Below are positions 17,160 through 64,000 of a stretch of 64,000 nt of DNA, piece by piece. The first letter of the stretch is position 1; every line of letters starts with the position of its first letter. The stretch covers positions 62,001-126,000 of the forward strand of contig JAOTWS010000003.1 of assembly GCA_029862745.1 (NCBI GenBank), in the 5' to 3' direction. The stretch comes from Nitrosopumilus sp. Its GTDB lineage: Archaea; Thermoproteota; Nitrososphaeria; Nitrososphaerales; Nitrosopumilaceae. A program made the translations under genes and the position numbers. The notes under the pieces were generated by a model. The model saw only the letters and a program-made list of their open reading frames with translations, was not told the origin of the DNA and ran no database searches.

Positions 17160-18182
17160 ATGGGATTGAACTTAAAAGACTTAGTGGTCAAAGAGAAAAC
17201 AACACTAGACGCATTTTCAACTAAAATTATTGCAATTGACGCATACAATGCAATTTATCAATTTCTTGCAAGCATCAGGGGCCCAGACGGATTACAGTTA
17301 TCAGATTCAGAAGGAAGAATAACTAGTCATCTCAGCGGTCTTTTATACAGGAATGTTAATTTTCTATCTCTAGGCATAAAACCCGTTTATGTTTTTGATG
17401 GAAAACCACCGTCATTAAAAACGGCTGAAATTGAACGAAGAAAACAGATCAAGAAAGACGCCACAATAAAATATGAAAAAGCAGTTGCTGCTGGGAATAT
17501 AGAAGATGCAAGAAAATACGCGCAACAGACAACTAGTATGAAAGATGGGATGGTGAAAGAATCAAAAGAACTTTTAACATATTTTGGCATACCATACATC
17601 GAAGCACCATCAGAAGGAGAAGCAACAGCTGCACATCTTACACAAACAGGTCAAGCATATGCTTCAGCAAGTCAAGACTTTGACTCCATTTTATGTGGAG
17701 CAAAAAGATTAATAAGAAATTTTACAAATAGCGGAAGACGAAAAATACCAAATAGAAATACATACATAGATATTGTTCCAGAAATTATCGATACACAGAA
17801 AACACTCGATGCATTAGGAATAACTAGAAAAGAATTAATTGATGTTGGGATTTTAATTGGAACTGATTTTAATCCAAACGGTTTTGAAAGAATTGGCCCA
17901 AAAACTGCAATGAAGCTAATCAAACAATATTCAAGGTTAGAGGAGATTCCCCAAATTCAAGAGCAATTGCAAGAGATAGACTATAAACAGATTAGACAAA
18001 TATTTCTAAATCCCAAAGTATCAGATGTTGATGAAATAATCTTCAACGAAGTAGAATACGAAAAAATCACAAACTATCTTGTAAAAGAAAGAAGTTTTTC
18101 AGAAGATAGAATTCAATCCACTTTAAATCGACTAAAAAAAGCACTAGAAAAAAAGAGTCAAAATTTAGATCAATGGTTTTGA
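17160..18182 (+). CDS. fen: flap endonuclease 1 (FEN1/XPG family)
   Basis: 340 aa, full length. The enzyme removes 5' flaps during Okazaki-fragment maturation and base-excision repair. The N domain has Asp27 and Asp80 (VYVFDGKPP). The I domain has the acidic cluster EAPSEGEA (Glu152, Glu154) and SQDFDS (Asp173, Asp175). A helix-hairpin-helix [17 protein letters not shown] follows. The C-terminus QNLDQWF resembles the PCNA-interacting (PIP) box but has Ser at the usual Gln position. Its start ATG 17160 is well placed. Confidence 0.97.
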
Positions 18183-18223
18183 AAATATTTCAATTTAATA
18201 ACTAGTCAATCTAATTTCAAAAA

Positions 18224-18751
18224 ATGCCTCAAACAGAAGCAAGAAAAATACTGAAAGATGCACCGATTATGTGGAGAAGAATAAATTCCATAGGAATTAT
18301 TCTAGATTGTAACTCCACATATGCAACAAATCTAGGATACACCAAATCAGAGATTATAGGTAAATCAATTTTTGAACATGTACCAAAGGAATCATGGGAG
18401 GTGATGAATAACTCACTTAAAACATGGTTTGTTACAGGAGAGGTAATGAATAGAAAAATTACATTCAAAAAAGAAAATGGAGAAACATTTCCAGGATTAC
18501 TTCATGCTTCAAGCCTTTATGATCAAAGTAACAATCTGCTTGGAAGTAACACTGTGATTTTTGATTTGACACAAATGAATGATGAGAGAATTGTAGAATA
18601 TGAGATTTTTTTTAAAGAAGCTAACAATAAGTTAAACAAGATAAAAGAAAAAGAATACAACTTATTAGATGAAAACTCAAAATCAGAATATAATGGATTA
18701 AAGAAAATGTTTGAAATGCTTTCTGCCATAAACTTGAGAGAATTGAAATAA
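18224..18751 (+). CDS. PAS-domain protein
   Basis: 175 aa. One PAS domain is at about 12-125 (GIILDCNSTYATNLGYTKSEIIGKSIFEHVP, then FPGLLHASSLYD). A C-terminal helical or coiled segment ends the protein. No histidine-kinase or HTH domain is attached, so it is a single-domain sensor that must signal through a partner. It lies 40 bp after fen on the same strand and may be co-transcribed. The ligand is unknown. Confidence 0.85.
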   Translation: MPQTEARKILKDAPIMWRRINSIGIILDCNSTYATNLGYTKSEIIGKSIFEHVPKESWEVMNNSLKTWFVTGEVMNRKITFKKENGETFPGLLHASSLYDQSNNLLGSNTVIFDLTQMNDERIVEYEIFFKEANNKLNKIKEKEYNLLDENSKSEYNGLKKMFEMLSAINLRELK

Positions 18752-19072
18752 AATAAATAGAAACTATCAAAAATTTTATTCATTTGTATAATATTGCATA
18801 TTAACGTCCATCAGATATGATATTTTTTACAATCCATGAAAAACATATCTCATCGTATATCCACAAATAATGCACCAGATTCTAATGAAGTATTCTCTCA
18901 TTATAGACATCTAAAGATCAAAATATCTAGTTTATGTATACCCACATATCATCACGCTTATTTTGAATCGATGTTTCACAAAGTTCAGATTTAGTTAACA
19001 GGTAGTTACTTTTCAATTTTGAATAAAAATTCAGTGCAGATCAAAAATATTTACACCCTCAGAAATTTTAAC
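18752..19072. other. intergenic with one weak 52-codon frame
   Basis: The plus-strand frame 18836-18994 (ATG to TAG, 52 aa) is His- and Ser-rich without a motif. A T-rich TATA-like element lies about 20 nt upstream. Chance cannot be excluded. Nothing else is seen. Confidence 0.3.
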
Positions 19073-51836: not shown

Positions 51837-52120
51837 GTGTGTGAGCTGGAGCACGAAATGCTGCCACGGCAGAGGAAACTCCTCCCTCCCTACAGGAAAT
51901 GTGATTTGGAGATAAATAATCAGAGATGATTGGCAACGGAGCAGAAAAGAATCCAATATGGCGCACAATGATGGCAAAACCTGAGATTTCCATAAAAGGA
52001 ATGAAAAAAGCCGACCCACATGGAGCAAGGCCAAACAGAACTCAAAGTACCTGTACTAAGTTCAGGTAGGCTGCAAAGCGAAATATCGTGAAAACAGAAG
52101 GAGGGTTACTCCCAGCACAC
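51837..52120 (+). ncRNA. rnpB: RNase P RNA
   Basis: No coding frame. The ends pair (GTGTGAGCTGGAG with CTCCCAGCACAC, one bulge) as helix P1. Conserved RNase P blocks occur in order: GAGGAAACTCCTCC (CR-I type) after the first stem, GCAAGGCCAAACAG (CR-III type), and ACAGAAGGAGGGTTACTCC (CR-IV/V type) near the 3' end. The 284-nt length fits a compact archaeal type A RNA. It cleaves 5' leaders from pre-tRNA with archaeal protein subunits. Boundaries are read from P1 and may be off by a few bases. Confidence 0.88.
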
Positions 52121-54551: not shown

Positions 54552-55190
54552 TTGAAAATAGCCGCAATTATTCCTGTAAAGACATTCTCTAATGCTAAAA
54601 CACGTTTAGATATACATCCACAAAAAATTGAGGATTTATGTAAAGTTATGTTAGAGGAAATTTTGCATACAATTTCAATATCACCGCAAATTGAAAAAAC
54701 AATTATGGTGACAAAAGAAGAAAAAGCAATAGAAATTGGAAAAAAATTTAACACGGTAAATATCATTGATGAAAAAGAAAAAAGTGTTAATGAGGCAGTT
54801 GCACTTGCAGATAAATACCTTTTAGAAAATGATTTTCATGCCTCAATTGTATTTCCTCAAGACATACCATACATCAAAACTCAAGATATTGATTTTATGT
54901 TAAACTACAAATCACCACCAAATTTTGCAATTATTGTTCCTTCAAGAAGATTTGATGGGACAAATGCTCTTGCAAGAATGCCTATAGATTTAATGGAGAC
55001 ACATTATGATGAAGATAGTTATAAAATCCACATGAATAAAGCCAAAGAGCATACACTGAATGTTGCAATGGTTTTTGTAAAAAGAATAATGTGGGATGTA
55101 GATAATAATGAAGATTTAGAATTTCTTTTAGAACAAAAAGAAAAACCAGAGATTGCAGAAAAAATTAGAAAAATATTAGATTCAAAATAA
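54552..55190 (+). CDS. cofC: 2-phospho-L-lactate guanylyltransferase
   Basis: 212 aa, TTG start at 54552. The nucleotidyltransferase start IIPVKTFSNAKTRL is typical, as are FPQDIPYIKTQDID and FDGTNALARMP. CofC activates 2-phospholactate or a related C3 compound with GTP for CofD. Together with cofE at 20339 three late F420 steps are present. Confidence 0.95.
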   Translation: MKIAAIIPVKTFSNAKTRLDIHPQKIEDLCKVMLEEILHTISISPQIEKTIMVTKEEKAIEIGKKFNTVNIIDEKEKSVNEAVALADKYLLENDFHASIVFPQDIPYIKTQDIDFMLNYKSPPNFAIIVPSRRFDGTNALARMPIDLMETHYDEDSYKIHMNKAKEHTLNVAMVFVKRIMWDVDNNEDLEFLLEQKEKPEIAEKIRKILDSK

Positions 55191-55512
55191 AATAGAAGCA
55201 AAGAGATTGAATGTTATAGGATCAAGTATTCCATCAGATTTTATATTATCTGTAGCAGTGCTAACCTCCAAATAATACAAATTACAAAATTAAATGAAAA
55301 GAACAATAACATTAAGATATTCATCAATACAGATAATCTTCCAAAGAATTACCGACCAAAAAACATCGTATCCAGAAGAAATCCGGTGTTTGTTATATCA
55401 CGATACTGATGAATTATTGTACTCTACAAATAGATGAATGTTTGATTATTTGTACAGTCAAAACTCGTATAGATTTTAATATGACAAAACGCCTTTGATG
55501 AAATAGATATCA
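55191..55512. other. 322-bp intergenic at the codon-skew switch
   Basis: Holds one plus-strand frame (55294-55437, 47 codons, ATG to TGA, no motif) that may or may not be a gene. Strand-specific codon use reverses across this interval (see findings). No iterated origin-recognition-box-like repeats were seen. Confidence 0.45.
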
Positions 55513-55749
55513 ATGTCTGAATCAACTGAAAAAAAATTAAATGCAACTGGATTATTTTGTCCTGAACCTGTATTCCGAACAAAGATCGAAATTGAAAGAA
55601 TGCAAGTTGGAGAGACATTAACCGTGTCTGCAGATGATCCTGCAGCTGAAGATGACATATCCAGATGGGTCACAAGAAATGGTCACGAATTAGTCAACAT
55701 GTCTAAAGATGGAGATGTTGTTACTTTTCAGATTAAAAAGGTGAAATAA
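55513..55749 (+). CDS. tusA: TusA/SirA-type sulfur carrier protein
   Basis: 78 aa. The sulfur-carrying Cys16 sits in the family motif GLFCPEPV, followed by a typical TusA fold with VGETLTVSADDPAA. TusA-type proteins pass persulfide sulfur for tRNA thiolation, molybdopterin or dissimilatory steps. It lies 9 bp upstream of cysM, so a link with cysteine sulfur is likely. Confidence 0.9.
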   Translation: MSESTEKKLNATGLFCPEPVFRTKIEIERMQVGETLTVSADDPAAEDDISRWVTRNGHELVNMSKDGDVVTFQIKKVK

Positions 55750-55758
55750 CCAAAAATC

Positions 55759-56751
55759 ATGACTGCTGTCAATGATACAGAGGTACTAAATCGGGTTGGC
55801 AATACCCCACTTGTTAAATTAAATTCTCTTTCTCATGATAACATAGAATATTTTGCAAAATTGGAAGGTCACAATCCATTTGGTTCTGTAAAAGACAGAG
55901 CAGCGTATTGGATGATCAAAGATGGTGAAGAAAAAGGAATTTTAAAAAAAGGAAAAAGCATAATAATTGAACCGACTTCTGGAAATACTGGGATTGCACT
56001 AACTGGAATTGCAAAGTTATTAGGTTATAAAGTTGAGATAGTTATTCCAGAAAAAGCTAGTAATGAAACTAAGACCATCATTAGAAATCTGGGTGCTAAA
56101 ATCTTTGAAACTAGTGATGATCTATGTCCAAAAGTGGGATCTGGGACTGACCAAAGTATTGCACTTGCAACATCCATTGCATCATCTAGACCGGATACGT
56201 ATTACTCACCAAACCAGTATGCAAATGAGGCAAATTTTATTGGACATTATAAAGGAACAGGCCCTGAAATTTGGAAACAGACGAACGGTAAAGTGACTCA
56301 TTTCTTTACGGGTGTTGGCACGGGTGGCACAATTACTGGAATTGGAACTTTTCTTAAAGAAAAAAATCCCAATGTTAAGATCATTGGTTGTCAACCACAA
56401 CAGAATCATTTGATTCAGGGGTGGAGAAATTTTGAAGAATCTGCTAAACCAGATTTATTTCTAAAAAGAGAAAAGATTGTAGATGATTGGGTTTCAGTAG
56501 ACAACAATGAAGCATTTTCAGTGATAAGAGAAATCTTTGCAAGAGATAAATTGTTAATTAGTCCATCCTCAGCAGCAGTTTATGCGTGTATGAAAAAATA
56601 TCCCATTGAAGGAAACAGATGTGCGGTAGGGATATTTGCAGATGATGGAAGAAAATTCAAAAGTGTTTACACATCTCAAAACATTATGAGTGAGGAAGAA
56701 TTTGATAATTCTCTAAAAGATGCCAAGTACATGTCAGAATTAGCTTACTGA
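55759..56751 (+). CDS. cysM: cysteine synthase (CysM/CysK type)
   Basis: 330 aa, PLP fold type II. Schiff-base Lys45 is in NPFGSVKDR. The substrate loop TSGNTGIAL and the phosphate loop GTGGTITGIGTF are clear, as is the C-terminal SPSSAAVYA. Makes cysteine from an activated serine and sulfide or from another sulfur carrier. With tusA upstream, use of a carrier-bound sulfur is possible. CysM versus CysK versus cystathionine synthase cannot be decided by eye. Overlaps the convergent 56745 gene by 7 nt. Confidence 0.9.
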   Translation: MTAVNDTEVLNRVGNTPLVKLNSLSHDNIEYFAKLEGHNPFGSVKDRAAYWMIKDGEEKGILKKGKSIIIEPTSGNTGIALTGIAKLLGYKVEIVIPEKASNETKTIIRNLGAKIFETSDDLCPKVGSGTDQSIALATSIASSRPDTYYSPNQYANEANFIGHYKGTGPEIWKQTNGKVTHFFTGVGTGGTITGIGTFLKEKNPNVKIIGCQPQQNHLIQGWRNFEESAKPDLFLKREKIVDDWVSVDNNEAFSVIREIFARDKLLISPSSAAVYACMKKYPIEGNRCAVGIFADDGRKFKSVYTSQNIMSEEEFDNSLKDAKYMSELAY

Positions 56752-57227
56752 TTAGAATCCATCATTTTCTTTAAATTTGTCTCATAAAACTCTCTGAACA
56801 AAGAATTCATATCCATTTCATGTTTCAAACATTTGTTACTGTGTTCAATAATTTCATTTTTAATTTTTCTACTCCACTGACTTTGTTGTTTATCCTTTGG
56901 ATCTATGATTGACGGATTTTCCTTAATTTTTTCCATAATTTCTATCAAAACTAATGCTAATTGACGAAATTTACTTGTACGTAATAGAAACATTTGTGAT
57001 TCTTCTATATTCACTAAATTCATCATTGCATAGACTTGATTGTAATATTCTAATGCTTTTTTATAATATTTTTTAAAATCATCAATTCTTTTTTGCCAGT
57101 AATTTTTGGATGTTTTTTCCTCTATTTTGTAACTGAATTGAATTTCACTTAGGTTCATCCCTAATTTTGTAAGTTTTTCATCGAATTCCATTACGGATTT
57201 TTTGATATTTTCCGGATCTCGACTCAT
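56745..57227 (-). CDS. hypothetical helical protein, 160 aa
   Basis: All-alpha, Lys/Glu-rich with long helices (YWQKRIDDFKKYYKKALEYYN). No membrane segment or motif. It may be a four-helix-bundle protein. Convergent with cysM. Downstream on the same strand as the 57259 and trxB genes. Confidence 0.65.
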   Translation of the reverse strand: MSRDPENIKKSVMEFDEKLTKLGMNLSEIQFSYKIEEKTSKNYWQKRIDDFKKYYKKALEYYNQVYAMMNLVNIEESQMFLLRTSKFRQLALVLIEIMEKIKENPSIIDPKDKQQSQWSRKIKNEIIEHSNKCLKHEMDMNSLFREFYETNLKKMMDSNQ

Positions 57228-57258
57228 AACATTTGTTTGATTAATTAGAATAAAGAGT

Positions 57259-57474
57259 TTAAGTGATGAGTTCCTTCCATGTGTCTTTAGATTTTTTGGA
57301 ATAGATCATAATACATTCTTCACAAAATGAATCCCATTCACTAATGTCTAACTTTTCAAAAAATTCTAAAGGCCACTTGTACGTTGGCAACATTCTATAT
57401 TGAAATTGTTGGATTGTGTAGATGTCTTTCTTGTGAAATTTATTCAAGCATCTTTTACATTGAGCAATTTTCAT
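57259..57474 (-). CDS. small CxxC protein coupled to trxB
   Basis: 71 aa with CKRC at about 6-9 and CEEC at about 52-55, a probable zinc site. The start ATG overlaps the trxB stop by one base (TAATG), so translation is coupled. Possibly a redox target or partner of the thioredoxin reductase; function unknown. Confidence 0.75.
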   Translation of the reverse strand: MKIAQCKRCLNKFHKKDIYTIQQFQYRMLPTYKWPLEFFEKLDISEWDSFCEECIMIYSKKSKDTWKELIT

Positions 57475-58475
57475 TACTGTTTATCGGTACTTTCTGTTAG
57501 ATACTTATCTACATCTATTGCCGCCATACAACCAAATCCTGCAGCTGTAATTGCTTGTCTATAAATTCTATCATGTACATCTCCAGCTGCAAAAACTCCT
57601 TCTATGTTTGTATATGTCTTATTTTTTAAAACAACATAACCTTCATCGTCTAACTCAATTTGGCTTTTGAATAACTTTGTGTTTGGTTCATGTCCAATTG
57701 CAACAAATAAACCTCCAGCATCAAGTGTTTTCTCTTCACCTGTTTTTAGATTTTTTATAATTACTTGTTGCATTTTTTGATCCCCTTTGATATCTGTAAC
57801 GGCTGAATCCCAATGAAATTTGATTTTATTATTGTTAAATGCTCTTTCTTGCATTACTTTACTTGCGCGTAATTCACCTCTACGATGTATTAGATGAACA
57901 ATCGTTGCAAATTTTGTTAGGAATGTTGCTTCTTCAATAGCTGAATCACCTCCACCTACAACTACAATTTCTTGATTTCTAAAAAACGGACCATCGCATG
58001 TTGCACAATATGAAACACCTTTACCTCCAAACGTCTGTTCACCTTCTAGTCCTAATTTTCTAGGATTTGCACCTGTTGCTATTATCACTGCTCGTGCTTC
58101 GTATTCTTCTGATGCTGTTAAAACTTTGAATGGGGCTCGTCTCAAATCAACATTTACTACTTCATCATCAATAATGGTTGTTCCCATTCTTTGAGATTGC
58201 TTTCGCATGTCTATCATCAAATCTGGACCCATTATTCCATTTTCAAAACCAGGGTAATTCTCGACCTCCGTTGTATTAACTAACTGGCCTCCTGGAAGTA
58301 ATCCAGATAAAATTAGTGTATCATAGCCTGCTCTTGAACAGTAAATTCCAGCAGTGTATCCTGAAGGCCCTGCACCAATTATCACTACATCAAATTTTGT
58401 TTTACTTTTGTCAGGTGTTTTGGGTTTATCATCGTTTGTTTCTAATACTGTTGCACCAGCATCTGCGGCCATCAT
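57474..58475 (-). CDS. trxB: thioredoxin reductase
   Basis: 333 aa. FAD motif GAGPSGYTAG is at 34-43. The redox-active CATC is at 157-160, NADPH motif GGGDSAIEEA next, and the C-terminal FAD motif FAAGDVHD. An extra N-terminal 25 residues precede the first strand; ATGs at codons 1 and 2 are the only visible starts. The enzyme reduces thioredoxin-like proteins using NADPH, or F420H2/ferredoxin in some archaea. Confidence 0.95.
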   Translation of the reverse strand: MMAADAGATVLETNDDKPKTPDKSKTKFDVVIIGAGPSGYTAGIYCSRAGYDTLILSGLLPGGQLVNTTEVENYPGFENGIMGPDLMIDMRKQSQRMGTTIIDDEVVNVDLRRAPFKVLTASEEYEARAVIIATGANPRKLGLEGEQTFGGKGVSYCATCDGPFFRNQEIVVVGGGDSAIEEATFLTKFATIVHLIHRRGELRASKVMQERAFNNNKIKFHWDSAVTDIKGDQKMQQVIIKNLKTGEEKTLDAGGLFVAIGHEPNTKLFKSQIELDDEGYVVLKNKTYTNIEGVFAAGDVHDRIYRQAITAAGFGCMAAIDVDKYLTESTDKQ

Positions 58476-58523
58476 GGTGATAGCCCTACTAATTTCAATA
58501 ATTTAAGTGAATATCTCTTTTGA

Positions 58524-58982
58524 TTACTTGTTTTTCATTCTCAAAAGTATCTGATCACAGATTCTACGCATTTCAGAATCTGATCCTACACTAGATATTT
58601 TTACAATATCTGTAGTTGTTACGATTCCAACAATCTGATCGTTTTCTTTGACAGGAAGTTTGTGAATTTGCTTTTCTTTCATTAATTCAGATGCTTCCCA
58701 AACTGTTTCTTCAGAATCAATTGTGATTAATGGAGACGACATTACTTCTGAAATTGCGGTGAACAACGGTCTTCCCTCCGCAGCCACTTTAGTAACAAAG
58801 TCTCTCTCGGTAATAATTCCAACTGGATTTTTATTGTGTAAGATTATCACACAACCTACTTTTAGATTCTTCATTTTTTCTGCAGCTTCCTGTAATGAAA
58901 CAGTTCCATCCAGAGTTAACACATTTTTACTCATTATTTGATTTACAAAGGTACTGTTCATGCCATGATACATTTTTTTCAA
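58524..58982 (-). CDS. CBS-pair protein
   Basis: 152 aa with two CBS motifs (LQEAAEKMKNLKVGCVIIL, then WEASELMKEKQIHKLPVKE). No extra domain. Probably a nucleotide-binding regulatory protein. Lies 50 bp upstream of trxB on the same strand and next to USP and other CBS genes. Confidence 0.9.
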   Translation of the reverse strand: MKKMYHGMNSTFVNQIMSKNVLTLDGTVSLQEAAEKMKNLKVGCVIILHNKNPVGIITERDFVTKVAAEGRPLFTAISEVMSSPLITIDSEETVWEASELMKEKQIHKLPVKENDQIVGIVTTTDIVKISSVGSDSEMRRICDQILLRMKNK

Positions 58983-59072
58983 TTATATGATATCAATTCT
59001 AAATTATCAAAATTGAAAATCAATCTAGATAATCACAATAGCCTTAAAATCCAAAAGACATTGACATAATTT

Positions 59073-59504
59073 GTGAGAATTAAGACTAAGAAAATACTTG
59101 TTCCACTTGATGGCTCAAAAAACTCACTTCGTGGTTTAGATATGGCCATTCATATTGCAAGGCAATCTCAAGGAACCATAACTGCATTAGCAGTAAAATC
59201 AGTACCTGGAATACATGCAATTCATCCTCTTGGGTTTCTTGACTTCAATTCCATGACAGAAGTAAAAAAAATCCTTGAAGATGCAAAAGGTAAGGCAGCA
59301 CAAAGAGGAATTCAATTAACTGGGAAAGCAATATCAGGAGATCCAGGATACGACATTGCTCGATTTGCAAATAATTCTAAAAATGGTATCGATTTGGTGG
59401 TTATTGGTGCACGTGGACTTGGCTCCGCTAAAGAGATCTTCTTAGGAAGTGTTTCTAATTATGTATTACACAAATCCAAAAAGCCTATTTTAATTGTAAA
59501 ATAG
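59073..59504 (+). CDS. universal stress protein (UspA family)
   Basis: 143 aa, GTG start at 59073. First strand KKILVPLDGSKNSLRGLDMAI. The ATP-binding motif GARGLGSAKEIFLGSVSNYV matches G-2x-G-9x-G-(S/T), so nucleotide binding is likely. Divergent from the CBS gene at 58524. Role in stress response is inferred from the family. Confidence 0.92.
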   Translation: MRIKTKKILVPLDGSKNSLRGLDMAIHIARQSQGTITALAVKSVPGIHAIHPLGFLDFNSMTEVKKILEDAKGKAAQRGIQLTGKAISGDPGYDIARFANNSKNGIDLVVIGARGLGSAKEIFLGSVSNYVLHKSKKPILIVK

Positions 59505-59550
59505 AGACTTTATAACTATTGATCAGTTTATTTTTTGTCTTAATACACTT

Positions 59551-60405
59551 CTATTCAGCCAATATATTGACAATGTCTGATTTGGTTACAATTCCCACAA
59601 GTTTTGATTTATGTACTACCGGAAGTCCGCTAATATCATATTTTATCATAAGTGTTATTGCAAGTTTTACATCTTTGTTCATTTCTATTGAAATTAGATT
59701 TGATGACATTATGTCTGTGGCATGAAACGGAAATAGATAACTCATTTGATTTGAATGTATTTCTTTTAAACCTTTTTTGAATTTATATTCTTGTACTTCT
59801 TTTGGATCTGCTGATTCTGCAATCCATTGTGGAATTTTTGCAGGAACAAAATCTCTGAAGGTGATTACTCCTATGGGTTTCTGATTTCTTTTTATGATTA
59901 CTCTTGAAATTCCATATTTTATCAATAAACTTTCAACATGTAATATAGGATCACTTGGTTCTGCAGTAACCACTTCCTTTTTCATTATTTTAGAAATTTT
60001 TATTTGTGTTGACTCTTTTATGAGAAATGCTTTTACAAGATCTGTCTCTGTTACAATCCCATCAAATGTTTTATCATTATTCATAATAATTATTAGACTA
60101 ATTCGATGTTTTTTCATCATTTTTGCACATTCTTGAACTGAATTTTCCTTAGTTAGTGTAAATAATTTTTTTTGAATGAATTCTTTTGCTTTTACCGAGT
60201 CAATTGGTTTTGTTCCTAATTCATAAATTTTTTTGGCAATATCTCTCTCAGTTATTACTCCCAATGGGAACTTCTTGTCCAAAATTATTACTCGTTTTGT
60301 CTTGTTTTTTAGTAAGATTTCTCTTACTTTCATAAGAGTTATGTTTGAATTTACTGTGATTGGTTTTGATATTAATTTGGATAGTTTTAAATTTTTTACA
60401 TCCAC
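59551..60405 (-). CDS. four-CBS-domain protein
   Basis: 284 aa, four CBS motifs in series (about 10-60, 75-125, 135-185 and 225-280). Each has a GVIT/GIVT exit segment such as FPLGVITERDIAKK and SKLVGIVTKSDIV. Two Bateman modules of this kind bind AMP, ATP or SAM-type ligands and usually regulate a partner. It lies among USP genes. Confidence 0.9.
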   Translation of the reverse strand: MDVKNLKLSKLISKPITVNSNITLMKVREILLKNKTKRVIILDKKFPLGVITERDIAKKIYELGTKPIDSVKAKEFIQKKLFTLTKENSVQECAKMMKKHRISLIIIMNNDKTFDGIVTETDLVKAFLIKESTQIKISKIMKKEVVTAEPSDPILHVESLLIKYGISRVIIKRNQKPIGVITFRDFVPAKIPQWIAESADPKEVQEYKFKKGLKEIHSNQMSYLFPFHATDIMSSNLISIEMNKDVKLAITLMIKYDISGLPVVHKSKLVGIVTKSDIVNILAE

Positions 60406-60565
60406 AGATTTACTTTATCATGTTAATTTCATAAATATGTCTCTGATGATGTCACTGTTGAAAACCATGTTTGATAATTATTGAAAGAATAATTACTTCC
60501 AACACAGATGGTTTGAATGTGAATAAATCTCAAAACAATATTCAGAGAAAGGAGTATTGAAAATT

Positions 60566-60997
60566 ATGTTTAAGAATATTCTTGTGCCTTTTGATCTATC
60601 TAGTCAATCTACAAGAGCCTTTAAAGTAGCAGTAGATGTTGCAAAAAAATATAATTCTAAAATTGTAATACTGACATGTGTTGAAGGTGATGCGTGGCAT
60701 CACAAATATTATGACGCAAAAGATGATTCCGAATTAATTAAAAAACAAGAGAAGGTTTCAAAAAAGTATCTCGAAAAACTGGAATTAATTGCAATTAAAA
60801 ATAAAGTCTCTATTACTTCCAATATTATTGCCTCAAAATCAGTGATTAAAGATATTGTTACATTTGCAAAATCTCGCAAGCATGATCTTGTTGTGATTGG
60901 CTCTCATGGGAGAACTGGTTTCGATAAGCTGCTTTTAGGCAGTGTTGCAAATGGTGTATCGCAAAAAATAAGATGTCCTGTACTTATTGTAAAGTAA
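60566..60997 (+). CDS. universal stress protein (UspA family)
   Basis: 143 aa from ATG 60566, chosen because GGAG at 60551-60554 is 11 nt upstream and the family starts at FKNILVPFD. A TTG at 60557 is an alternative. The ATP motif GSHGRTGFDKLLLGSVANGV is complete. Followed 15 bp later by the malate/lactate dehydrogenase-type gene. Confidence 0.92.
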   Translation: MFKNILVPFDLSSQSTRAFKVAVDVAKKYNSKIVILTCVEGDAWHHKYYDAKDDSELIKKQEKVSKKYLEKLELIAIKNKVSITSNIIASKSVIKDIVTFAKSRKHDLVVIGSHGRTGFDKLLLGSVANGVSQKIRCPVLIVK

Positions 60998-61012
60998 ACC
61001 TTTGTGATATAA

Positions 61013-61927
61013 TTGATTTCAATTATAGGTAGCGGTCGAGTCGGAACTTCTATTGCATTTTTATGTATGTCTCATGTTTTAGACAATGTTTTACTAGTTA
61101 ACCGTAATGAAAACAAAGCAATTGGGGAATCATTAGATATTTCTAATACGATTCCGTTTAATTCCGAGTTCTCCATTCAAGGAACATCAGATTATTCTAA
61201 AATCATGGGTTCTAATATTATCATAATCACCGCAAGCACTGGGGCATATCAAAATAATAGATATGAAAATACTATATCTCAGGCAACCACCATTAAAGAT
61301 ATTGCAAAAAAAATAAAACTATACTGTCCAGACGCCATTGTTTTAGTGATTTCAAATCCTCTTGATGTTTTAACATATGTTTTTCAAAAGGAAACTTTGT
61401 TTTCCAGATTCAAAGTAATTGGAATTGCTTCCAGTCTGGATTCAAGCAGATTTAGATACTTAATCTCAGAAAAATTTTCCATACCACAATCCTTTATTTC
61501 TAACGCGTTGGTTCTTGGCGAGCATGGTGACTCCATGGTTCCCATATTCTCAGGCGTTTCTGTTGATGGTAGTAAGTTGTCTTCTATACTTGACGTTAAT
61601 GAAAAAATCACCATGACCAACAACATTCGAAACTATTGGAAAAGACTAAGAGCATATAAAAGCCGTTCTCAGTTTGGCATTGCCAAACAAACCTATGACG
61701 TAGTAGAAGCTATTCATAACTTAAAAGAAATTACCATACCTGCTTCTATCGTTCTTGAAGGAGAATATGGTGAGAGTGATGTAGCAATGGGAGTGCCTGT
61801 TAAAATCAATAAAAACGGTGTTTCTGAAATTCAAACTCTTGATCTTAATGAATCTGAATCAATATTATTAAAAGAATCATCACATATAATCAAAGATCAG
61901 TTAAGATCTGTTTTTTCTAATTTTTGA
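61013..61927 (+). CDS. malate/lactate dehydrogenase-family protein with altered substrate loop
   Basis: 304 aa, TTG start at 61013. The NAD(P) loop IGSGRVG is intact. The cofactor-choosing acidic residue after strand 2 is Asn30-Arg31, which may favour NADPH. Catalytic residues Asp143, Arg146 and His171 (GEHGDS) are present. In the mobile loop (TGAYQNNRYENT) the usual substrate-selecting Arg at the first loop position appears absent, though Arg83 (the second Arg) is present. Substrate may therefore differ from malate. It ends inside the convergent next gene (11-nt overlap). Confidence 0.85.
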   Translation: MISIIGSGRVGTSIAFLCMSHVLDNVLLVNRNENKAIGESLDISNTIPFNSEFSIQGTSDYSKIMGSNIIIITASTGAYQNNRYENTISQATTIKDIAKKIKLYCPDAIVLVISNPLDVLTYVFQKETLFSRFKVIGIASSLDSSRFRYLISEKFSIPQSFISNALVLGEHGDSMVPIFSGVSVDGSKLSSILDVNEKITMTNNIRNYWKRLRAYKSRSQFGIAKQTYDVVEAIHNLKEITIPASIVLEGEYGESDVAMGVPVKINKNGVSEIQTLDLNESESILLKESSHIIKDQLRSVFSNF

Positions 61928-62687
61928 ACCCATCTAATATTTGCTGATGTACATCACAAAAAAAATTATTTTCGATTTGAGTGCGAAAAAGATCTTTTTG
62001 CCAATGTGCGTTATATAATCTACAATCTGAATTATCACAAAAGGCATTACCTGTTTCATAATACATGATTGCTTGTAAAATATATCCCTCTACAATTTTA
62101 AATAATCTTGAATCATGATATTCTAAGAACTCTCCTCGGTATTTTTTCTTTAATTCTTCAATTTTTTCATCAGAGAAATTTGTTAGTAATTCCAAATAGT
62201 ACTTTTTTGGTTTTGCAGGCGCCTCTATTATTCCAGTAGTAGAAATAATTGCAGGGTTGGATCCTATTAATGCTCGTGCATGATATCTAAAATCGCCATC
62301 ATCAAATGTACATATGAGCTTATTTGTAAAAATAATATGCAATATGTCAGCATTATTCTCAGTTATTGGAATGAAATCAATAATTTTTTTACAAAATTCA
62401 AAGCCATCATATAATATCTTTAGATCATTTTCTGACATGTCCGTGTTATCACTTTCAATTTTTATTTCTTCAATTGTTGGTATATGTTTTTGAAATGGAT
62501 TTTTTAAATCAAATATTCTGACACTTGCAATATTCTTAGATCGTTTTTTATCATTATGTTTGAAGAAATTATCCCTTATCTCCACTAATACTGGAAATGT
62601 ATTTGTAATAAATTTCTGTAATTCTTTTATTTGAATTTCAGGAACAGTTGGCTCATCATAAAGAATAATTTTTGAAATTTTCAACAA
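61917..62687 (-). CDS. archaemetzincin-like protein lacking the HExxH motif (possibly DUF6775 type)
   Basis: 256 aa. The C-terminal part reads G-x-x-F-C-x4-C (ETGNAFCDNSDCRLYN), then C-x2-H near the end (FFCDVH). This mirrors the tail of archaemetzincins (HExxHxxGxxHC-x4-C ... C-x2-C). At the HExxH position the sequence is AIMYY, so the catalytic His and Glu are missing. It is probably a zinc-structured, non-peptidase relative. The DUF6775 name is from memory and not checked. Confidence 0.65.
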   Translation of the reverse strand: MLKISKIILYDEPTVPEIQIKELQKFITNTFPVLVEIRDNFFKHNDKKRSKNIASVRIFDLKNPFQKHIPTIEEIKIESDNTDMSENDLKILYDGFEFCKKIIDFIPITENNADILHIIFTNKLICTFDDGDFRYHARALIGSNPAIISTTGIIEAPAKPKKYYLELLTNFSDEKIEELKKKYRGEFLEYHDSRLFKIVEGYILQAIMYYETGNAFCDNSDCRLYNAHWQKDLFRTQIENNFFCDVHQQILDGFKN

Positions 62688-62708
62688 GAAGGATATTGAT
62701 TCAATAGC

Positions 62709-63527
62709 TTATCTTTCTAACTCTTTGATTTTTGCTGCCGTAATCTCAGCTGCTTTTTTTCCAGAATACAACATCGAACCAAATGTAGGTCCCATTCTAG
62801 CCAATCCGTGAGTTTCAGTAACTGACATTCCTGCTGCAACTAATCCGGGGTAAACTTCACCTGTTTTATGTACAACATGTTCTTCACCATCATTAACATG
62901 CATTGGTTCCATTCCTTTCCATTTTGTCAGGCCTCTATCAACTAGTCTCTTCACAGCCACAGAGTCATGACCTGAAGCATCAATAATCATTTTAGCTTCA
63001 AGTGCAACTGGATCAACACAGGTAATATTACGTGGTAGTGCTGAAACGGGCATCCAATTAACAACAATTCCTGTCACTCTACCATTTTTTAATACCAAAT
63101 CATCAAATTTTGTAAGTTGAAGAAATTTTACACCTGCATCACAAGCTGCTGCAATTAATTTTGATACGGCATGAGGTCCAGGCGTTAAGTATAATCCATC
63201 TGCAACTTTTTTGTACGGTATACCTAATTCATCCCAAAATTTTTGCGCAGGTTCTCTTACAGTTACTGGATTCATCATATATCCACCTAACCAATAACCT
63301 CCTCCCAGATAGTTATTTTGTTCAATGACAAGAACTTTGAAACCCATATTAGAAAGGTCTCTGCTTGCAGTTAACCCTGCAGGTCCTGCACCAATTATGA
63401 TGACATCGGAGTCTGCTCTATCAATTAATACCTCATGAAATTCGTTTGCTATTGCACGTGTAATTTCGACTTCACGTACATCTGTAAATATTTTAGATGA
63501 TTGCTCTGCAATGGTTACTTTTTGCAT
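62709..63527 (-). CDS. thi4: ADP-thiazole synthase Thi4 (Cys type)
   Basis: 272 aa from ATG 63527, with an AAAGGA ribosome-binding-like sequence upstream. A TTG at 63551 would add 8 residues. NAD/glycine-binding GAGPAG and LGGGYWLGGYMMN are present. In the motif before VDP the residue is Cys (NITCVDP, Cys178 in the long form, 170 in the short). This position is Cys in the suicidal yeast enzyme and in haloarchaea, but His in the sulfide-dependent methanogen type. It makes the thiazole of thiamin, probably using its own Cys as sulfur donor. Confidence 0.92.
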   Translation of the reverse strand: MQKVTIAEQSSKIFTDVREVEITRAIANEFHEVLIDRADSDVIIIGAGPAGLTASRDLSNMGFKVLVIEQNNYLGGGYWLGGYMMNPVTVREPAQKFWDELGIPYKKVADGLYLTPGPHAVSKLIAAACDAGVKFLQLTKFDDLVLKNGRVTGIVVNWMPVSALPRNITCVDPVALEAKMIIDASGHDSVAVKRLVDRGLTKWKGMEPMHVNDGEEHVVHKTGEVYPGLVAAGMSVTETHGLARMGPTFGSMLYSGKKAAEITAAKIKELER

Positions 63528-63685
63528 GGCGTTGTTTCCTTTCGTGAACAATTAATACTTTCCCACAACTTTTTTTAAAAAAAATTAGGTCACACTAATA
63601 ATTTTGATTACTCATGATGTGTAAGAATAGGAAAATTATGTACTTTGATGAAATTATTTCTCCTAAAATACCCAAATATCAAAAA

Positions 63686-63692
63686 TTTATAA
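63686..63692 (+). promoter_or_regulatory. TATA box of the nitrite/sulfite reductase-type gene
   Basis: TTTATAA is centred about 29 nt before the TTG start at 63718, compatible with a leaderless transcript. Confidence 0.5.
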
Positions 63693-63717
63693 CCAAACTA
63701 AAAGAAATTTCATTGTA

Positions 63718-64000
63718 TTGACGTCATCTGATCTTAAACAATATACACCAGATTCCACCAAACCCAAAATTAATTGGGCTAGAATTGAGGAAGCTGACAA
63801 TTTTGCTAAAACTGTAAAACTGTTCCGCCAAGGAAAATATGATGAGGCTAGTTTTAGACGATTTAGACTTCAACATGGAGCATATGGTACCAGAATGACT
63901 GGGGATTATGCGATGGTCAGAATAAAACTACCTGCAGGGGAAATTTATCCAAATCAATTTGAAAAAATATCTCAACTCAGCGAACAGTATTCTATAGGCA
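63718..64000 (+). CDS. nitrite/sulfite reductase, N-terminal part (partial)
   Basis: 94 residues to the window end from a TTG at 63718. The N-terminal ferredoxin-like half-domain of sirohaem reductases is recognisable: FRQGKYDEASFRRFRLQHG, then YGTRMTGDYAMVRIKLPAG. Sirohaem and 4Fe-4S ligands lie beyond the window. Assimilatory nitrite or sulfite reduction with ferredoxin is likely. Which substrate cannot be told from this part. Confidence 0.85.
   Translation, partial: MTSSDLKQYTPDSTKPKINWARIEEADNFAKTVKLFRQGKYDEASFRRFRLQHGAYGTRMTGDYAMVRIKLPAGEIYPNQFEKISQLSEQYSIG

Follow-up and report, generated by a model that had tools for sequence, protein, structure and literature searches.

A sharp reversal of strand-specific codon use in a Nitrosopumilus genome is very probably the edge of an inverted and relocated gene block

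Block structure of the region around cofC and tusA

The window, by which we mean the whole stretch of DNA analysed here, comprises 64,000 nucleotides (positions 62,001-126,000) of contig C3, which is 251,909 bp long and belongs to a 1.81-Mb Nitrosopumilus genome in 17 contigs. Coordinates are given in window numbering, continued past 64,000 along contig C3, and the whole contig was gene-called with a simple codon-usage caller. By comparison with the gene order of relatives (see below), the region was divided into blocks X, Y and S as follows:

17160-18751, plus strand: right end of block X, consisting of fen and a PAS-domain gene (Pfam; order in genomes G080, G098 and G163)
17160-18182, plus strand: fen (XPG/FEN nuclease; Pfam)
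18224-18751, plus strand: PAS-domain gene (Pfam)
18752-19072, no strand: new junction 1 (X to Y), intergenic, 27% GC, common to the HKST02 assembly (G154:C52)
19073-55190, no single strand: block Y, from an AsnC-type gene to cofC, orientation as in relatives, skew equilibrated
54552-55190, plus strand: cofC, the final gene of Y (Pfam CofC)
55191-55512, no strand: new junction 2 (Y to S) and reversal point, intergenic, 28% GC, common to HKST02 (G154:C107 / L041)
55513-64000, plus strand: in-window part of flipped block S, with tusA, cysM-like, trxB-type, CBS/USP, MDH-type, thi4-like and other genes

Block S runs on to approximately window-equivalent position 102,284 (acs, C3:164,284), where junction 3 follows, with a TFB gene at 102,594. 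S thus measures 47 kb and Y 36 kb. The three breakpoints (18.75-19.07, 55.19-55.51 and 102.28-102.59 kb) are all intergenic, have a GC content of 26-28% and cut no gene. At junction 1, homology to X stops at ~18,755-18,786 and homology to Y begins at ~18,978-19,059, while at junction 2 the Y-side homology is over by ~55,215 and the S-side homology starts from ~55,455. An archaeal RNase P RNA was also found at 51841-52120 on the plus strand (187 bits).

No long inverted repeats were found at the breakpoints. The three junctions yielded short matches only, and a repeat search covering 3 kb on either side of them returned a best match of only E=0.007. The best junction repeat was a 14-bp direct repeat, GCCTTTGATGAAAT, of which each end of S has one copy (55,491 and 102,240). 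Since one copy, at the acs end, is coding, this pair may be due to chance, and we do not infer a circular intermediate from it.

Codon use is reversed over a bounded 47-kb segment

A and T were tallied per strand and per gene at fourfold-degenerate third positions. Plus-strand genes before 55.2 kb mostly had an A/(A+T) of 0.62-0.79 (cofD 0.71, cofC 0.64) and minus-strand genes one of ~0.30-0.58. From tusA onward the plus-strand genes ranged from 0.39 to 0.53 (tusA 0.46, cysM-like 0.53, MDH-type 0.39), and the minus-strand genes were mostly higher (trxB-type 0.66, a gene at 59.6 kb 0.77, thi4-like 0.54). To locate the edges of this change, a two-change-point fit was applied to the whole 252-kb contig, with 300 permutations of gene order as control. 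The log-likelihood gain was 128, compared to a permutation maximum of 38. The left edge was placed at 55.5 kb (54.1-55.6 kb within 2 log-likelihood units) and a right edge, opposite in sense, at 102.3 kb (102.3-103.2 kb; 94.5-103.6 kb within 5 units), outside the window. Within these limits the fourfold A/(A+T) was 0.548 for plus genes and 0.612 for minus genes, compared to 0.678 and 0.461, respectively, outside them. In 8-kb bins the flip persisted to ~98-102 kb, after which the old polarity was back and continued to the contig end at ~190 kb. The reversed asymmetry is therefore a bounded 47-kb segment with two edges rather than a single switch.

A preliminary description, made by reading the window, had claimed that strand-specific codon use reverses near 55.2-55.5 kb, and both the fourfold A/(A+T) values and the change-point fit bear this out. 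Its serine examples (TCA:TCT counts) hold for cofD (5:1), cofC (6:1), smc (25:55), the MDH-type gene (10:16) and the trxB-type gene (6:2), while the contrast that it drew for thi4 is weak (5:4). Of the skew checks that it proposed, the one on third positions reveals the change near 55.3 kb through the same fit, whereas plain cumulative GC and AT skew over contig C3 has no extreme there. The signal is therefore specific to third positions.

Relatives carry the block elsewhere and in the other orientation

We compared 80 loci around cofD and mapped all C3 proteins onto them; 72 loci from Nitrosopumilaceae with cofC plus a mapped next gene were informative. TFB directly follows cofC in 51 of these, with a spacing of usually ~90-130 bp, and in a further 18 cofC is followed by the gene that comes after TFB, TFB itself being undetected, which brings TFB or its neighbour to 69 of 72 loci. 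The remaining three are the HKST02 locus (L041), which has tusA as in the window, and L065 and L103, which have other arrangements. Consistently, cysM was located ~29-42 kb upstream of cofD and on the opposite strand in 16 of the 16 other genomes of the genus in which cysM and then cofD lie on one contig. In the complete 1.6-Mb genome G046, cofD was unmatched despite a completeness rating of 99%.

The order in relatives is X, inverted S, Y, TFB, compared to X, Y, S, TFB here, where S points the other way. The full old order was read in G080 and G163, where X is followed by acs-to-tusA in inverted orientation, by Y ending in cofD-cofC, and by TFB. As far as their compared stretches extend, G146 and G123 match this order, which G098 follows in outline. 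In relatives the acs end of S follows X (the two adjoin in G123), and Y is directly flanked by tusA and TFB. The edges obtained from composition only (55.5 and 102.3 kb) coincide with two of the three synteny breakpoints. An inversion boundary, one of three options offered by the preliminary description, is thus what the relatives display, in the form of a 47-kb block that is both flipped and moved and has breakpoints at the skew edges; the synteny comparison that it suggested located the boundary at 55.19-55.51 kb. A simple in-place inversion of S was ruled out, since in relatives Y separates S from TFB.

One relative has a different arrangement at the same place. In L103 (RKRY01000158.1), the beginning of Y, in inverted orientation (21.1, 20.3, 19.4), comes directly after cofC and is followed by tusA; judged from its gene order, this appears to be an independent inversion at the same cofC-TFB site.

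The replication origin and terminus map elsewhere

The preliminary description favoured a replication origin at the reversal. Such a second active origin would lie in the 322-bp cofC-tusA gap and send out bidirectional forks, with a diffuse termination zone near 100 kb. Its left edge would be sharp, as observed, and the polarity is that seen at orc1, with an A-rich plus strand to the left and a T-rich one to the right. This polarity is, however, always found at the left edge of an inverted block within a region where the plus strand is A-rich. Across the whole genome the Orc1/Cdc6 C-terminal domain family matched only once, at 91.5 kb of contig C2, and around this match the fourfold asymmetry changes sign with origin-type polarity. 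The gap upstream of this orc1 (L016:2817-3115, G000:C2) holds a pair of 35-bp direct repeats, TATTTTGACCCTTTCATTTCCACTCCAGGCGTTAA, together with a number of inverted TGTTAACA boxes, which makes it a candidate for the true origin. In agreement with the earlier remark that the window lacks orc1/cdc6 and origin-box repeats, the core of the 35-bp repeat does not occur in the window even with 3 mismatches allowed, and a search at 55.15-55.56 kb for origin-type repeats gave only repeats of chance length. A lone copy of the repeat core with 2 mismatches (CATTTACACCCCAGGCGT) was present at C3:182,588 (~window-equivalent 120.6 kb), in block T to the right of the moved block.

The complete relatives G080, G068 and G119, whose records start at orc1, each have one axis, with a sign change at orc1 and another near the opposite point, and no sign change anywhere near cofD. 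Their leading strand is T-rich at third positions, as the preliminary description had supposed. This is in line with reviews that report a single origin for N. maritimus (PMC4010727, PMC5333045). Moreover, the skew to the left of the block equals that of the relatives, the skew edges are rearrangement breakpoints, and the same genes bear the old signature in relatives (see below). We therefore consider a second origin at this site extremely improbable.

Skew sign changes occur at termini too, and the reversal could on that ground be read as the replication terminus, another of the options offered. In G080, however, the change of terminus type is found at ~782 kb, which is opposite orc1 and some 200 kb away from cofD (991 kb). 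At 55.3 kb the polarity is that of an origin, and after 47 kb it switches back. This leaves a terminus with hardly any probability. With cofD at 991 kb, the fork from orc1 travels leftward there in G080.

The same genes compared in both orientations

Codon use unlike that of the neighbouring genes might also be expected from a horizontally acquired island or a gene-expression class with codon use of its own. The S genes, however, are core genes that are collinear elsewhere in relatives. Their plus-strand members have an A/(A+T) of 0.537 here, compared to 0.410 and 0.423 for the orthologues in G080 and G163, and their minus-strand members have 0.624, compared to 0.722 and 0.710. The unflipped Y and T genes agree between genomes. 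The S orthologues in relatives thus retain the pre-inversion strand signature, and since the same orthologues are compared, gene content and expression are removed as explanations. With a difference that is strand-dependent and orthologues found in the opposite state in relatives, we regard an island or expression class as next to impossible.

With the regional equilibrium set at 0.715 and 0.43, the amelioration of S amounts to 0.365, so that S has covered ~36% of the distance to its new state (95% bootstrap interval 0.287-0.436, that is 29-44%). Amelioration is uneven along S (~0.2-0.55), which could mean that sub-blocks were flipped at different times, or merely reflect small samples. In G098 the part of S corresponding to 55.5-76.7 kb is independently inverted in place without any decay (0.410 and 0.702). 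Because its skew is undecayed, this flip is either younger or an assembly error in G098. It lies at ~533-585 kb of G098:C1 (L133-L137) and reuses the gap upstream of tusA.

A sister species shares two of the three new junctions

HKST02 (G154) has junction 2 on contig C107 and junction 1 on C52, and so two of the three new junctions. Its acs sits at a contig edge, and junction 3 (S to TFB) is visible only in the assembly studied here. A cofD tree groups the window with HKST02 as its sister (support 100/96), with N. salaria next out (100/98), and N. salaria (L042) retains the old order. Taken together, the tree and the gene orders place the rearrangement on the branch that leads from the split with N. 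salaria to the pair formed by the window genome and HKST02. Two shared new junctions in HKST02 and the old order in N. salaria mean that a single event explains both genomes.

These comparisons also bear on whether the assembler might have misplaced and misoriented the block, a concern in a draft genome of 17 contigs with a junction 3 that no other assembly contains. Two of the three junctions recur in the assembly of a different species, with a mean protein identity of 90.5% over the shared contig, and amelioration of ~36% is impossible for an artefact, as the fresh flip in G098 has none. Misassembly is therefore an unlikely source of the new order, and we hold an artefact to be very improbable.

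Inversion and relocation within one replichore

We are highly confident that the reversal is the left edge of the 47-kb core-gene block S (tusA to acs), which was inverted and moved past the 36-kb block Y within one replichore, at a recent point in the descent of this marine ammonia oxidiser. The observations behind this are the order that relatives have kept, the three breakpoints, the two junctions present in the sister species and the old signature of the relatives' S genes. Mechanistically, synonymous sites in Nitrosopumilus accumulate T on the leading strand and A on the lagging strand, and the locus is copied by a fork that moves from orc1 toward the terminus, which is leftward in the window. 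The flip swapped the leading and lagging strands of S at once. Its codons shift only by slow mutation, so that S still carries a lingering imprint of its former strand.

Since the block moved past its neighbour and three breakpoints resulted, the change must have taken no fewer than two inversions, or else a single inverted transposition. The route was probably two overlapping inversions, of S and Y together and then of Y back, because inversions are commoner and occurred independently in G098 and L103; one inverted transposition is the less likely course.

The moved S block is a well-supported further case of a known phenomenon. A literature search turned up no relevant account of rearrangements in Nitrosopumilus. 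Inversions, as a review on measures of skew cautions, yield pseudo-shift points (PMC3269016), which are likewise sign changes caused by an inverted block and not by an origin or terminus. The present case differs in that it concerns an archaeon and fourfold sites only, and in that the old order, the breakpoints and a sister genome are at hand. Inversions within one replichore necessarily swap leading and lagging strands (PMC5850607). As in such inversions, the block did not cross the origin-terminus axis and its genes ended up on the other strand, but here it also moved past a neighbour, with three breakpoints. In bacteria, inverted GC skew that decays over time has been used to infer inverted genes (PMC6220195). 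There too the old skew outlasts the inversion and then decays, whereas here it is the AT component that is informative and the inversion is evident from synteny.

A sharp, origin-like switch of codon use in an archaeal draft genome can thus be the scar of a rearrangement, which is a trap for skew-based origin finding. That related species have these genes in either orientation amounts to a clean natural experiment that separates replication-strand from expression effects, and it yields the extent of skew decay (~36%) on a branch that is datable against sequence divergence. For ammonia-oxidising archaea, with few wet-lab data on replication, such comparisons can reconstruct the direction of forks and past rearrangements from sequence alone.

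Asymmetry rises from orc1 to the terminus

In the complete genomes G080 (L159-L178, L121-L130), G068 and G119 (L199-L218), fourfold asymmetry is weak at orc1 and grows toward the terminus, where the change is sharp. Over 49 stretches from the three genomes, the asymmetry difference climbs from ~0.06 at orc1 to ~0.26-0.28 close to the terminus (Spearman 0.66). GC at fourfold sites likewise increases from orc1 to the terminus, and intergenic AT skew goes up only slightly (0.055 to ~0.09, p = 0.058). Prokaryotic skew has been called uniform along a strand (PMC3269016). This pattern could stem from dispersed initiation, or from a gradient in either mutation rate or expression. The scar is highly visible here because the block sits in a strongly asymmetric part of the chromosome. 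It is conceivable, though rather doubtful, that on a chromosome with this rising asymmetry Nitrosopumilus rearrangements recur at two sites, between cofC and TFB and upstream of tusA (reused independently in L103 and G098), perhaps through fork stalling or breakage. Sampled stretches of G000:C1 (L028-L032) switch sign repeatedly (-0.35, +0.17, -0.07, +0.18 and +0.29), which points to either further rearrangements or the terminus.
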